From the NCBI RefSeq assembly GCF_007744515.1, contig NZ_CP036268.1, positions 2,891,712 through 2,955,711 on the forward strand: DNA of 64,000 nt, in the 5' to 3' direction. A model generated the notes under the pieces. The model worked only from the letters and a program-made list of their open reading frames with translations. It searched no databases and was not told the origin of the DNA. This DNA is from Stratiformator vulcanicus (lineage in GTDB: Bacteria; Planctomycetota; Planctomycetia; Planctomycetales; Planctomycetaceae). Numbering within the stretch: position 1 is the stretch's first letter; every line of letters begins with the position of its first letter. The position numbers and the translations under genes were made by a program. Shown in pieces: positions 13,473 to 17,551 of this stretch.

Positions 13473-14012
13473 TCAGGCTTCGACAGCCGCGTCGACCGGA
13501 GTGTCCGAATCGTCTCGCTTGAGGGTGACGCTCTTGCGCCGCTGCAGCGCGACGCGACCGGTTCGGACAAGTTCGAGAATTCCGAATTGTCGCATTTGGT
13601 CGACGAATGCCTCCAGCTTCGATTCCGGACCGCTGATCTCGATCATCACGTGACCGGGGCTGACATCGACGATCTTGCCGCGAAAAATTTCAACCAGCAG
13701 TTTGACTTCGGCGACCTTGCCGCCTTCAGTGCTGACCTTCACGAGCATCAGATCGCGTTCGACGTAGTCTTCATTCGAAAAGTCGACGACCCTCACGACG
13801 GTGACGATCTTTTCAAGCTGCTTGCGGACCTGATCAAGGACCCGGTCGTCGCCGTTTACCACAAACGTCATCCGGCTGAATTCAGGCTGGTCGGTCTCGC
13901 CGACCGTCAAGCTGTCGATGTTGAAGGCCCGCGTGGCGAGCATTCCGGAGACCTGCGCAAGAACGCCAGGCTGATTCATTACGAGCGCAGAAAGAATGTG
14001 CCGATGCCGCAT
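13473..14012 (-). CDS. ilvN: Acetolactate synthase small (regulatory) subunit
   Basis: The regulatory partner of acetohydroxyacid synthase; it binds valine and activates the catalytic subunit. The N-terminal ACT domain is canonical ([20 protein letters not shown], then [11 protein letters not shown]), followed by the second, ferredoxin-like domain typical of the family ([12 protein letters not shown] near the end). At 179 aa it is slightly longer than usual owing to a basic then acidic tail. No large subunit ilvB is in the window; 430 bp of repeat-containing DNA lie upstream, so ilvB must be encoded elsewhere. Confidence 0.95.
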
Positions 14013-14443
14013 AGGACTGCCAGTTCAGTAATCATTTGAAAGAGCGGAAAGCCGGTTCCCGTCCGACCGGTTCGCCGAACGCACCCCGACCGCACTGGTC
14101 GAGTCAGACCGTTCCGCAAACCGGACCGAGAGTGTACGCCGCAGGTTCGGGGGTCACAAGCGGCGAGCAGCCTATGGGACGCACGAGCAATGGGCCGTGA
14201 GGGCGCTGGCGCAGAAAAATTCGAACAACCGGCACAAGCCCGAACCGCAGGCACGTCAAATCTCGCGAAGTCGTGTGTGGCCCGGACACCGTCCGGGCGG
14301 CGAAGCCGCATGAGAAGTCAGTCGCCGGTCCCAACCCATAATCGATGCCTGTACAGCCAGGCGACCTCGCACTGAATGCTCTTGTCGCTACGCGACACGG
14401 ACGTTGTCCGTGCCACTCCTGCGTAGTACGACGATTGATGACG
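14013..14443. other. Repeat-bearing spacer upstream of ilvN
   Basis: No gene is supported here. The right part holds a REPIN-like doublet (14275-14425). The left part should contain the ilvN promoter. A stretch at 14105-14121 resembles one at 2607-2624. Confidence 0.5.
14275..14425. repeat. REPIN-like doublet A (two inverted REP copies)
   Basis: Two copies of one palindromic element in opposite orientation. The left copy (14275-14318, minus) has a hairpin with GCCCGGAC (14280-14287) and GTCCGGGC (14291-14298). The right copy (14380-14425, plus) reads CTCTTGTCGCTACGCGACAC and continues into the hairpin CACGGAC-GTT-GTCCGTG (14396-14412). Both match the consensus of the copies at 16702-16856 and 17041-17089. 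This head-to-head arrangement is that of REPINs, non-autonomous repeats mobilised by RAYT (Y1) transposases; no RAYT gene is present here. Confidence 0.7.
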
Positions 14444-15631
14444 CTAACGCGGTTCCCCCTTGAACACCGCGTCTGACTTCCGATCGGCCTTCTTCAATTG
14501 CACGATCCCAAAGATCGCCAACAGCGTCGCCGCGGCTCCCCCAACCACAACGGCGATCATCCAGCGCGGAATCCCCTTGGGAGCATACCGCTCGCTGAGC
14601 CGCTCCATGCGGACCTTGCCGACGCGGACATCCTGCAGGCCGTATTTGTCCCAGAATCTTTGGTCAGGATCGTCGGCTGCTTCAACCCAGAGGGCCTCAT
14701 CCTTCTTGATCCGCCCGAACCATTGCTCCGCTTCGGTGACCTCGCGGGCGAGTTGAGCTTCGATCTCTGACACCGTGAACGGTCTGTTTGAACCGTCACC
14801 GATGACTTGCAGCTCTAAGGCGGACTCTGCATCCTTGCGAAGTGCCTCAGCTTTATCAGGATCAGAGGTAAGTTCTGCTGCACGTAGGAAAGCACGTGCC
14901 GCAAGAAGCTTCGCGTCCTCCTCGGCGCGCAAATGTGGGAAATGCCAAATGATATCCCCCAATGCCTCCAGCAAGACTGGCGACTTGTAGTCGCCAAACT
15001 TCATCATGCCGAGTAGCCCATCGACGGCGTCTTTCAAGTCGGCGGATTCGTGCTCCTCCAAGAAGTATGCGAACGAGTAAACCGCCTTGAAGTCAGCAGG
15101 ACTCACATCGTCGCGGCGCTCAATTTCGCGACGAAATAAAACGTACGCTGCCAACAGCTTCTGATATTTCTCCCGACCGAAGTGCGCCTCCGGATTGATC
15201 TCCAGTGCCTGATCGATCTCCGCAATTCCCTCCTCGAGTTGGCCGGAGTGAATCAGAAACGTGCCTCGGTTCGCGTGCGTTTCGTACCGGCCGGTCTCCG
15301 GGAATCGCTCCGCCTTGCGATCGATGACTTCGATCGCGTCTTCGTCACGCCCCAGCTTCGAGAGGGCAACGGCCCAGTCATCATACAGCCCGGCGACCTC
15401 GGCGTCCGACAGTTCCAATTCCCCCGCATCCACGGCGGCAATTTTCTCTTGCCGATCCTCAATTCGCCACTCGTAGAACACGTCGGAGTGTCGCAGGAAC
15501 TTCCCCACGATCAGTTCCAGCGCACCTGGGAACCGGCTTCGCTCCATCTCGAGCGTGTCAAGATCCCACAGGCATGCGTTCGCATTCGATGCGACAACGC
15601 AAAGCAAAACGGCGGAAGCAAATCGCAACAC
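14444..15631 (-). CDS. Secreted/membrane-anchored TPR protein
   Basis: Hypothetical, 395 aa. A signal peptide (MLRFASAVLLCVVASNANA) is followed by ACLWDLDTLEMER. Tetratricopeptide-like helices include LYDDWAVALSKLGRDEDAIE and HANRGTFLIHSGQLEEGIAE (about residues 85-145). A single C-terminal transmembrane segment lies near residues 357-378 (WMIAVVVGGAAATLLAIFGI), with a short basic end. It would be displayed in the periplasm and anchored at its C-terminus. The start is GTG 15631, six bases after GGAGG. The role is unknown; TPRs imply protein contacts. Confidence 0.75.
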   Translation of the reverse strand: MLRFASAVLLCVVASNANACLWDLDTLEMERSRFPGALELIVGKFLRHSDVFYEWRIEDRQEKIAAVDAGELELSDAEVAGLYDDWAVALSKLGRDEDAIEVIDRKAERFPETGRYETHANRGTFLIHSGQLEEGIAEIDQALEINPEAHFGREKYQKLLAAYVLFRREIERRDDVSPADFKAVYSFAYFLEEHESADLKDAVDGLLGMMKFGDYKSPVLLEALGDIIWHFPHLRAEEDAKLLAARAFLRAAELTSDPDKAEALRKDAESALELQVIGDGSNRPFTVSEIEAQLAREVTEAEQWFGRIKKDEALWVEAADDPDQRFWDKYGLQDVRVGKVRMERLSERYAPKGIPRWMIAVVVGGAAATLLAIFGIVQLKKADRKSDAVFKGEPR

Positions 15632-15685
15632 AATATCCCTCCGGTAATCGGTCGCCCCATTATAGCGCGCGTTTAGCCGCGACCG

Positions 15686-16180
15686 TCAGGGAGCGCTCGA
15701 ATTGCCACTAAGCTCTTCGCTCGAAGATTCGTCCCCTGGGTCCGCCGTGCCGCCAAACATACTCTTGGTCACCAACCGAGACCCCAGCAATGCGCCCCCG
15801 ATACCGACCAGAACCCAAGTCGCCAGCATAGTGATCAATCCGCCGGAGATATTGCCGTAGGGATGGTTCGCGCTGCTATACCCCAAATTCATGCCTGCAA
15901 GGCAAGTGCAAAATCCCGCCCCGCCGGCTGCGCACGCGATCAGAACACCGATTCCAATCATCAGGCCGAACATCTTCAGCATTTGAATTGGAGCCGGCCA
16001 CCACGACCCCTTTGGCATCTCATCGCGAGACTGCGTATACCACCGCGCCAGAAAGGGCGTCGCGATGAGCATCCAAACGATCCCAACCCCGTAGAACCCA
16101 GCCGCAAGCGTTCCGAAAAACGTCACGAGGGCGAACGTCCAGAAAAAGCGGGTCGCGAGGCTCTGCGTCGTTTCAGTCAT
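15686..16180 (-). CDS. Four-helix membrane protein, paralogue 1
   Basis: Hypothetical, 164 aa. The N-terminus LATRFFWTFALVTFFGTLAA and GVGIVWMLIATPFLARW are nearly identical to paralogue 2, followed by two further hydrophobic segments (about residues 73-100 and 112-135) and an acidic, Ser-rich tail. The start codon overlaps the stop of paralogue 2 (ATGA), so translation is probably coupled. The family is not recognised. Confidence 0.7.
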   Translation of the reverse strand: MTETTQSLATRFFWTFALVTFFGTLAAGFYGVGIVWMLIATPFLARWYTQSRDEMPKGSWWPAPIQMLKMFGLMIGIGVLIACAAGGAGFCTCLAGMNLGYSSANHPYGNISGGLITMLATWVLVGIGGALLGSRLVTKSMFGGTADPGDESSSEELSGNSSAP

Positions 16181-16686
16181 GTGTCGTCGGTCCGGCCGGT
16201 TGCGTCTTCAGGTTCTGCGACCTTACCGGAGAAAACGCCTGCGCCGAAACACTTTTCCGTCATGCGACAGGTCAACTGCCAGACGACCGTCCCACCAACA
16301 ACCAACGTCATGACAGCACTCAACAGCACGGCAAGCGTTACCTCCGGATAGGTGGGGTAACTTCCGTGCTGGCCCCAAAACAACTCGGCAACCGCGAAAC
16401 CTGCCCCACAACCAACGGCACCGGCGATTCCCCCCGCGATCAGGCAACAGAATCCGACTCCGACCTGAGCGAAGAATAGCTGCACCATTTGCACCGGTGG
16501 AGTGTCAGCCGTCTCGACCCGTCGTTCGGATTGCGACTGCGTCCACCAGCGAGCCAGGATCGGCGTCGCGATCAGCATCCAAACGATCCCGACCCCGAAG
16601 AAGCCCACAGTGATCGTCCCGAAGAACGTCACGAGGGCGAACGTCCAGAAGAAACGTTTAGCGAGCGTGTGATTGTCAATATTCAT
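16177..16686 (-). CDS. Four-helix membrane protein, paralogue 2
   Basis: Hypothetical, 169 aa. It shares KRFFWTFALVTFFGTITV and VGIVWMLIATPILARWWTQS with paralogue 1, then two longer hydrophobic stretches (about residues 72-102 and 115-137) and a charged C-terminal tail. Several cysteines occur in the third and fourth helices. It is the upstream gene of a coupled pair. A REPIN-like doublet begins 16 bp upstream of its start codon. Confidence 0.7.
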   Translation of the reverse strand: MNIDNHTLAKRFFWTFALVTFFGTITVGFFGVGIVWMLIATPILARWWTQSQSERRVETADTPPVQMVQLFFAQVGVGFCCLIAGGIAGAVGCGAGFAVAELFWGQHGSYPTYPEVTLAVLLSAVMTLVVGGTVVWQLTCRMTEKCFGAGVFSGKVAEPEDATGRTDDT

Positions 16687-16701
16687 CGCAGACCAAATTC
16701 T

Positions 16702-16856
16702 CGGGTGGCCCGGTTCCTATAGAACCGAGCGGCGCAGCCGCAGGAGGTCTCGGCGGGACTTCTCGAGCGAATCTCATCGATGACCTTACTCGAACCGCCC
16801 CTCCGAGACCTCTTGTCGCTGCGCGACCCGGACGTATAGCGTCCGGGTCACCCGCG
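16702..16856. repeat. REPIN-like doublet B (two inverted REP copies)
   Basis: Left copy 16702-16753 (minus) and right copy 16803-16856 (plus) are mutually inverted. Outer arms GCGCAGCCGCAGGAGGTCTC (from 16732) and 16803-16824 pair in 19 of 22 positions. The right copy holds a perfect 10-bp hairpin (GACCCGGACG 16825-16834, CGTCCGGGTC 16840-16849). The left has CGGTTC-CTATA-GAACCG. A TATAG loop is common to both. The two copies enclose a 49-bp spacer. Confidence 0.75.
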
Positions 16857-17040
16857 TATGATTGTCGATCTTCATCGCAAACCTAATTTACGGGGCAGCC
16901 GCGACTGGTAAGGAGCGGATCATCTGGCGGCCGCTCTCTCCATTGCCCCGATGGCGGCTCCTTCCTTGATCCGCTTCCTGCCGGGCGCGGCTTTAAGATC
17001 TGTCGAGGAGCGGGTTGATTGGAGAGGTGCCCCAGAAAGA
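16857..17040. other. Spacer with degenerate palindrome
   Basis: No gene is seen. Segments AAGGAGCGGATCA (near 16911) and TTGATCCGCTTCCT (near 16967) are partly inverted to each other, and 16988-17010 looks like a decayed inverted REP copy facing the one at 17041. Confidence 0.4.
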
Positions 17041-17089
17041 TCTCTCGCGGCTACGCGACCTGGACGTATAGGGGCCGGGCTACCCGTGG
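17041..17089 (+). repeat. REP-like element, degenerate copy
   Basis: It reads GCGGCTACGCGACCTGGACG then TATAGG..GCCGGGCTACCCG, matching the right copy of doublet B with several changes that weaken the hairpin. It ends 13 bp before the stop codon of paralogue 3. Confidence 0.65.
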
Positions 17090-17101: not shown

Positions 17102-17551
17102 TTATGTTTTTCGGGGCGTTGCGAACATCCGACCGGTGATCCGCTCAGCGAATCCGCGGATTCCGATGAAATACAGCACCAGCCACAGTATCGGGGTCAG
17201 AAATCCGAAATTATAGACGATTTCAGAGAAACCGATCTCGGTGATGAGTTCGAGCACTGTCGCAATAACTGTTGCGAGAATGTATCCCGCTATACTCGCA
17301 CCAATTCCGATGCCGAGGCCAAGGCCGACAATCAAACGAATCGTTTGCAAAACATATTTCGTCGGCGGCATATATTGCCCCGGCGACTGTTCGCCGTGAG
17401 CCAGGGCGAGCCACCGTGCCATCGGAAACGATGCCCCGATGATCCAAACCAGACCCGCACCGAAAACGAAGATCGCCGGAATGCCGACGAACGTGATGAA
17501 CGTCAGCGACCAGTAATATCGTCTGGCGAGCGTTTGATGGTCGGCACTCAT
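17102..17551 (-). CDS. Four-helix membrane protein, paralogue 3
   Basis: Hypothetical, 149 aa and more diverged. It starts MSADHQTLARRYYWSLTFIT, aligning with the LAKRFFWTFALVT block of paralogues 1 and 2, then FGAGLVWIIGASFPMARW. Two C-terminal hydrophobic stretches follow (about residues 70-95 and 112-130). The three copies probably arose by local duplication, with REP elements now between copies 2 and 3. The function is unknown. Confidence 0.65.
   Translation of the reverse strand: MSADHQTLARRYYWSLTFITFVGIPAIFVFGAGLVWIIGASFPMARWLALAHGEQSPGQYMPPTKYVLQTIRLIVGLGLGIGIGASIAGYILATVIATVLELITEIGFSEIVYNFGFLTPILWLVLYFIGIRGFAERITGRMFATPRKT

Follow-up and report, generated by a model that had tools for sequence, protein, structure and literature searches.

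Inverted twin-hairpin doublets in a planctomycete chromosome, probably mobile elements copied by RAYTs of the same genome

In the sources drawn on here, knowledge of REPINs comes mainly from gamma-proteobacteria. Those of Pseudomonas fluorescens SBW25, in the passages cited from Bertels and Rainey (2011, PMC3116915), are inverted REP doublets with their conserved ends outermost, extragenic, amplified as doublets, located near RAYT genes and capable of forming hairpins, all features shared by the doublets reported here. The GI REPINs of SBW25 are described there as symmetrical (palindromic), whereas the planctomycete units consist of two abutting hairpins and the arms of a doublet differ in the second. 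E. coli BIMEs, built of Y and Z REP units, and the REPtron are likewise similar in that TnpAREP recognizes GTAG together with a hairpin (cited parts of PMC6006769 and PMC8266576); E. coli BIME units, however, have one stem-loop each and vary in its loop, while the planctomycete arms differ by compensated change of a separate second stem.

The PVC superphylum, Rhodopirellula baltica included, carries GTAG REPs according to PMC3733652, whose text credits R. baltica with “a plethora” of tyrosine transposase genes. An earlier, sequence-only reading of the locus, which had met with no description of the element for planctomycetes, was therefore not right on this point at the level of kind. As described in that text for R. 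baltica and Opitutus terrae, these REPs share with ours a GTAG/GTGG tag and dimers arranged head-out, with several families in a genome and several tyrosine transposases; some GTAG REP families also prefer heterodimers, and Enterobacteriaceae GTAG-3 forms dimers exclusively of unlike units. The cited sections of PMC3733652 describe no second covarying hairpin, and judged by their wording, REPINs with twin hairpins and marked arms seem to be a new variant. The planctomycete TnpAY1 class 3 genes of PMC6006769 are also flanked by structured repeats; in the passages cited they have a Y----Q motif and CnGA-footed structures, in contrast to the Y[MI]HxNPV motif of the RAYTs reported here and their GTRG-footed units.

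We assign a probability of about 0.93 to the doublets being REPINs, namely non-autonomous inverted REP pairs of ~140-190 bp with GTRG ends facing outward, copied in trans by HuH/Y1 RAYT (TnpA-REP) proteins. The repeats are thus probably a large family of tiny gene-less mobile elements, copied around the chromosome by the planctomycete's own RAYTs. Copy number, orientation bias, set spacers, sharp GTRG ends, flanked RAYTs and co-occurrence across genomes all support the REPIN reading first made from the locus, and together offer a large, well-paired planctomycete REPIN population, its RAYTs included, that can be traced through a whole family.

Units and doublets in the window

The window, the whole 64 kb stretch of DNA analysed, contains the following features around the repeats.

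13473..14012, minus strand: ilvN, acetolactate synthase small subunit (ORF; Pfam ALS_ss_C and ACT), adjoining REPIN 1
14277..14416, plus strand: REPIN 1, subfamily I, 140 bp, running from GTGG to CCAC; a B arm followed by a 48-nt model spacer and an A arm
14273..14322, plus strand: REPIN 1 B-arm unit, second hairpin GCGGC-GAA-GCCGC; R1 56.3 bits, E 4.9e-13
14371..14420, minus strand: REPIN 1 A-arm unit, second hairpin GTCGC-GTA-GCGAC; R1 63.7 bits, E 4.8e-15
14444..15631, minus strand: TPR-like protein gene (ORF; weak TPR matches below cut-off), adjoining REPIN 1
15686-16180, 16177-16686 and 17102-17551, minus strand: three tandem paralogous small membrane-protein-like genes (ORFs, alignment)
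16705..16851, plus strand: REPIN 2, subfamily II, 147 bp; a B arm followed by a 47-nt model spacer and an A arm
16701..16754, plus strand: REPIN 2 B-arm unit, second hairpin GCGGC-GCA-GCCGC; R1 58.9 bits, E 9.6e-14
16802..16855, minus strand: REPIN 2 A-arm unit, GTCGC-GCA-GCGAC, tetranucleotide GTGA; R1 72.2 bits, E 2.6e-17
17034..17087, minus strand: solo degenerate unit, 3 of 11 model pairs non-standard; R1 51.0 bits, E 1.3e-11

With filters off, the R1 covariance model finds exactly five units across the window (E 2.6e-17 to 1.3e-11), scores that are partly by construction because the 28-row training set includes all five. A separate repeat search, independent of R1, paired four of them with one another in direct or inverted orientation and recovered the first as a short match only. 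The claim of five copies within 2.8 kb, arranged as two inverted doublets and one single, is thus borne out by the sequence and by R1, with the correction that they occupy three spacers and not two. The short core TCGCTRCGCGAC alone, allowing up to two mismatches, occurs in the window at chance level (24 found, 27.5 expected) and was rejected as a signal; significance belongs to the full unit.

The second and third tandem paralogues enclose REPIN 2 and the solo unit, and Pfam gave no match for any of the three genes. The sequence-only reading, in which the pairs flank recently duplicated genes, holds for the second doublet and the single and fails for the first, which lies between ilvN and the TPR-like gene. 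Nor does “recently” suit these genes, as their proteins are just 40% and 26% identical to that of the first paralogue and close nucleotide similarity is confined to a 131-nt stretch of two of them (82%).

The population of doublets across the genome

Any notion that the element is limited to a few copies is contradicted by the genome-wide searches. The 18-mer CTCTTGTCGCTNCGCGAC, with at most one mismatch, occurs 71 times in the genome against 0 for the reversed control, the first doublet used as a DNA query returned 101 matches, and an initial count of 151 units gave way, under the covariance model, to 208 distinct units in a genome of 5.23 Mb, close to 80 of its 81 sites (the count spans 80 of 81 clusters, L274 being left out). 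Inverted pairing is equally pronounced: among 110 adjacent unit pairs no more than 150 bp apart, 81 are inverted with GTRG ends outward, the other three arrangements accounting for 12, 9 and 8. These close head-out doublets hold 162 of the 208 units, leaving 46 outside them, and their spacers fall within 43-49, 81-85 and 89-91 nt, with clusters at 43, 46-49, 84 and 89-91. A GTGG or GTAG tetranucleotide is present in 185 of the 208 units, and conservation ends sharply there: in every group, column information is close to zero once past the first 2-5 nt on the outer side of GTRG (2-3 nt for the larger groups).

Within subfamily I, identity reaches 0.84 among A arms taken from different loci, compared with 0.73 between the arms of a single REPIN, and spacer identity is 0.66 against 0.26 when shuffled. 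The other groups follow the same arm and spacer pattern, with spacers at 0.42-0.55 (group III has no computed arm-arm identity). Because arms of the same type are more alike across loci than arms within a REPIN, we conclude that amplification proceeds as whole doublets.

Several observations would also suit fixed structural or regulatory repeats, such as BIME-like terminators, mRNA-end stabilizers or gyrase sites, that were spread by recombination and kept for their function, their link to RAYTs being incidental. The doublets mostly avoid long open frames (by an open-frame proxy used in place of gene calls, frames of 150 codons or more contain 19 of 81 REPINs and 62 of 81 control stretches), the RNA folding of window REPINs 1 and 2 is strong (z -4.4 and -8.3), and a 1.18-kb cluster with several REPINs recurs 2.58 Mb away at 97.8% identity, including its flanking (GACTTCC)n array, a duplication that is a block copied by some other route. 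We nevertheless consider this explanation very improbable, given that the elements end sharply at GTRG, that their spacers are fixed and that units track both the presence of RAYTs among 61 genomes and their position within genomes. Host function and mobility are in any case compatible, neither excluding the other. A search of nested clusters for a clean empty site turned up none.

RAYT genes and their association with units

Three distinct RAYT genes sit among units in the source genome and are flanked by them, contradicting any suggestion that a RAYT gene is lacking. All three match NF047646 (REP_Tyr_transpos) and Pfam Y1_Tnp (PF01797) with E of 0.001 or better, the best E among them being 4e-29 for NF047646 versus 6e-8 for the IS200 model NF033573; the best solved relative is 4er8 (TnpArep, E 1.3e-5), and the HuH, Tyr and WQ motifs align. 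The flanking units are of subfamily I, III and IV types, and for subfamilies II and V, whose cognate enzyme may have been lost, no RAYT flanked by own-type sequence was found in the source genome. Both REPINs of the window are hundreds of kb away from each of the three genes. As proposed for other REPINs, a RAYT encoded elsewhere in the chromosome would bind the single-stranded units at the replication fork and cleave next to the guide tetranucleotide, and the doublet would move through a single-stranded intermediate.

RAYT genes are often bracketed by two GTRG-out units, much as an insertion sequence is by its ends, and the asymmetric arms can be likened to the ends of IS608, which are asymmetric. 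The doublets might accordingly be ordinary MITEs, with A and B arms that descend from the left-end and right-end hairpins of an active IS200/IS605 element. We judge this very improbable, since the three RAYTs (identity to the first is 55% for the second and 49% for the third) are each single copy and form no IS copy family, the first, for which alone bits are given, favors NF047646 (101 bits, cut-off 80) over NF033573 (31 bits, cut-off 55), and A/A and B/B pairs occur alongside A/B pairs among the bracketing units. Among the matches listed for the source genome there is neither a full-length parent IS in several near-identical copies nor a second near-identical copy of any unit-flanked Y1 gene, and the 12 other Y1 matches have no unit within 1.4 kb.

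Because the model was trained on units beside the genome's own RAYTs, its recovery of them is built in, and the loci of other genomes serve as the independent test. Of 26 distinct RAYT-group genes, 25 have a unit no more than 165 bp away on one side or both, and many, though not all, are bracketed; the RAYT L292 has no unit nearby. The 26 genes derive from 29 rows after merging L084/L277, L085/L278 and L089/L290, which have identical sequences; L091 and L092 have frame breaks in their translations and the unit matches at L087 are odd (95 nt). Four further RAYT-like loci (L182, L183, L185 and L186) and L184 stand outside this count; L182 and L183 gave no match to the model, L184 two, and L185 and L186 one each. 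At 71 acidobacterial RAYT loci, which with 9 planctomycete loci make up the best 80 of 163, no unit was found near the gene, the only match being a weak one 2.7 kb away.

Co-occurrence across 61 genomes of the same family points the same way. At least five units occur in 18 of 23 genomes with a strong RAYT and in 6 of 38 without one (Fisher p 1.8e-6), unit counts per genome being lower bounds because stricter Infernal filters were used; the exceptions are the 6 of 38 genomes without a strong RAYT, which carry 5-23 units, and the 5 of 23 with one that carry fewer than five. In a Y1 tree the flanked RAYTs cluster, requiring 3 changes against 15.8 when shuffled. This tree, with many weak forks and an unsettled bootstrap, serves for clustering and not for branching order, and its rows L188, L192, L193, L091 and L092 have poor or possibly out-of-frame translations.

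The second hairpin and the two arms

Every unit bears a second covarying hairpin. Unguided RNAalifold of 33 units from RAYT loci gave two adjacent hairpins with compensatory changes in 11 of 12 pairs, and paired cells in this unit alignment reach 97.4% versus 68.6% when shuffled, a level attained by 0 of 500 shuffles. Two covarying stems would also suit copies of a riboswitch or of a gene for a structured non-coding RNA, an interpretation to which we give next to no weight: an Rfam search of the window left the element without a match and returned only a tRNA, and inverted pairing with fixed spacers, even use of both orientations (40 AB, 39 BA) and association with RAYT genes are all atypical of such RNAs.

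The second hairpin reads GTCGC..GCGAC in A arms and GCGGC..GCCGC or GTGCC..GGCAC in B arms. Scored by script, 79 of 81 doublets in the source genome are heterodimers, and of the remaining two, inspected by eye, 102404 has a degenerate A arm and 4956230 a third kind of stem. In nine other genomes a by-eye reading found unlike arms in 18 of 18 doublets, with a GTCGC-type arm in 17, the one at L073 being without it. GTCGC-GNA-GCGAC is retained by one arm in nearly every subfamily and genus seen, while the partner arm is different and self-complementary.

The expectation that local hairpins would beat arm-arm pairing outright was rejected, as they do so in just 7 of 81 predicted folds; arm-arm pairing exceeds or ties local pairing in the other 74. 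Relative to A/A' and B/B' chimeras that join naturally diverged arms, arm asymmetry does halve the computed energy gap by which the long hairpin is favored over separate ones. These chimeras replaced a perfect-homodimer reference, against which the observed doublets are trivially weaker (81 of 81). Since local hairpins win outright so seldom, the claim about the long hairpin was reduced to this halving of the gap.

According to PMC3733652, in the passage cited, the preference for heterodimers “has no obvious explanation”, escape from hairpin clearance being one suggestion, and the Figure S11 legend of PMC3116915 suggests a less stable clover form as what RAYT recognizes; arm asymmetry fits both. 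The second-hairpin sequence may mark an arm as A or B, and the asymmetry could prevent a doublet from becoming trapped as a single long hairpin or a cruciform. We tentatively propose, at less than even odds, that the second hairpin is an arm-identity mark which gives the element left and right ends and holds it nearer to a “clover” fold readable by a RAYT dimer than to the long hairpin. Different small hairpins at the two ends may then explain how the elements stay mobile, and, if true, the arm-identity mark would provide a mechanism for the unexplained heterodimer preference of REPs. The near-absolute heterodimer rule, combined with compensated second-stem changes, makes this open question testable.

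A CA just after the second stem is near-invariant in the 33-row alignment and present, by a crude count, in 99 of 208 units. By analogy with the Marinomonas TnpA, as described in the cited part of PMC8266576, GTRG might guide cleavage at this CA, which we mention as a lead.

Anatomy of the unit and its doublets

The window contains five copies of one 50-54-nt unit, arranged as two inverted doublets, each measured from its GTRG tetranucleotide to the complement of that tetranucleotide, and one worn single:

14277-14416, inverted doublet 1
16705-16851, inverted doublet 2 (REPIN 2)
17034-17087, worn single unit

From its GTRG end, the unit comprises GTRGC, a first hairpin (e.g. CCGGAC..GTCCGG), an abutting second hairpin (GTCGC-GNA-GCGAC or a variant) and CAAGAG. 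The sequence-only reading had reported at least five copies, including two inverted pairs and a degenerate single, all of which are present, and its core, CTCTTGTCGCTGCGCGACCC-GGACG-TATAG-CGTCC, is the same unit read from the opposite end. Adjoining the outer edge of REPIN 2 is a 41-nt stretch (16854-16894) that is 83% identical to the beginning of the gene at 16177-16686 (start codon plus the codons that follow it); it may be what is left of another tandem paralogue, one that now harbours REPIN 2.

A first look with R1, a covariance model built from 28 units, mainly A arms (arms are told apart by the second hairpin), gave 151 units in the 5.23-Mb genome, and a scan of loci around 80 of 81 clusters gave 208 distinct units. 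Neighbours no more than 150 bp apart (n = 110) are arranged GTRG-out in 81 cases, GTRG-in in 12 and in tandem in 17, so that the genome-wide search proposed from sequence alone returns both abundant units and an inverted pairing bias. GTRG-out doublets account for 162 of the 208 units, with spacers of 43, 46-49, 84 or 89-91 nt between model ends, and avoid long open frames (19/81 versus 62/81 control stretches). In every group, conservation by column vanishes a few nucleotides beyond GTRG, and the element therefore ends there.

A second hairpin that differs between arms

Unguided RNAalifold of 33 units from RAYT (REP-associated tyrosine transposase) loci yielded exactly these two hairpins, and 11 of their 12 pairs carry compensatory changes; shuffled and slid-partner controls failed to give the same pairing signal. 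By script, 79 of 81 own-genome doublets combine an A arm (GTCGC..GCGAC; left in 40, right in 39) with a B arm (GCGGC..GCCGC or GTGCC..GGCAC), and in nine other genomes the second hairpins were unlike in all 18 doublets inspected by reading, 17 having a GTCGC-type arm, although these counts are not independent events, as subfamily copies share descent. This heterodimer rule holds in five own subfamilies and the nine further genomes. Because R1 is built mainly from A arms, A/A doublets would be easier, not harder, to detect. Units bracketing RAYT genes depart from the rule, with A/A, B/B and A/B all occurring.

With DNA parameters, a long arm-arm hairpin is favoured over separate local hairpins by a mean of 14 kcal/mol in observed doublets, 31 kcal/mol in 250 A/A' or B/B' chimeras, each joining arms of two natural REPINs that belong to a single group, and 54 kcal/mol in perfect homodimers. 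The difference between 14 and 31 kcal/mol indicates that asymmetry roughly halves the pull toward the long hairpin, beyond ordinary divergence. As far as the accessible parts of these sources go, heterodimers have been suggested to escape hairpin clearance (PMC3733652) and a clover form to be the RAYT substrate (PMC3116915); the computed halving is compatible with both and decides for neither.

The sequence-only reading knew of no description of this element for planctomycetes, but the accessible part of PMC3733652 reports REPs and RAYTs for the PVC superphylum and Rhodopirellula baltica. The accessible text of the papers found on REPINs and RAYTs in Planctomycetes contains no second covarying hairpin with arm-specific sequence. 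The kind of element is thus known, while the twin-hairpin, arm-specific variant is probably new.

Linkage to RAYT genes and distribution

Among 15 Y1-transposase-like matches in the genome, units adjoin three RAYT genes, the enzyme flanked by the same element that had been sought (approximate genome positions):

5186638-5187144, RAYT gene 1, doublet beside it, model spacer 47 nt
2522091-2522618, RAYT gene 2, doublet beside it, model spacer 81-84 nt
3779595-3780113, RAYT gene 3, a unit on either side, the two separated by 622 nt

The three show 49-55% identity; all are hits to the NCBIfam model for REP-associated tyrosine transposases, and their best solved relative is TnpArep 4er8. The remaining 12 Y1 matches have no unit within 1.4 kb. 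Five of these unit-free loci are L034, L035, L036, L037 and L039; the two with readable frames, L035 and L036, show another form (FLTWTTYG-W-PGD) that recalls, as a lead only, class 3 in the accessible part of PMC6006769.

Among 26 distinct members of the RAYT group, the own three and genes of other planctomycetes taken together, 25 lie no more than 165 bp from a unit; no unit lies near the gene in 71 acidobacterial RAYT loci scanned. Across 61 genomes of the same family, units and strong RAYTs co-occur. Six same-family genomes (G002, G001, G035, G006, G042 and G059) carry 5-23 units each and no strong RAYT of this group; in these the enzyme may have been lost or have diverged, or the draft assemblies may have gaps. 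Outside the family, R1 matches are rare: a phylum draw of 149 genomes, scanned with stricter filters, gave matches at 1e-5 in seven, five of them outside the family.

Modes of spread

Same-type arms are more alike across loci than are both arms within one element, and spacers are conserved, indicating that the whole doublet, not the single unit, was copied. Alongside the observed anatomy, ends, pairing and enzyme linkage of the doublets, the best-supported account of their spread is RAYT-driven copying of whole doublets via single-stranded DNA, which would involve RAYT cleavage, a single-stranded intermediate and target choice.

Larger blocks have also spread by a route other than RAYT copying of doublets. 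A 1.18-kb REPIN-rich cluster occurs twice on one contig of the genome, in opposite orientations, 2.58 Mb apart and at 97.8% identity, and in its region subfamily I and IV elements are nested with a period of 256 nt:

1714895-1716071, first cluster copy, ending in a (GACTTCC)n array
4294855-4296037, second cluster copy, ending in a (GACTTCC)n array

A GC-rich repeat of ~120 nt with a T-run end like an intrinsic terminator (L220:933-1056, contig positions about 1714904-1715027) is found at about two dozen genome places at 75-100% identity, its eight best copies adjoining REPIN clusters. Rfam gives no match for it at E 0.1; it folds with z -2.4 and is perhaps a multi-copy small RNA.
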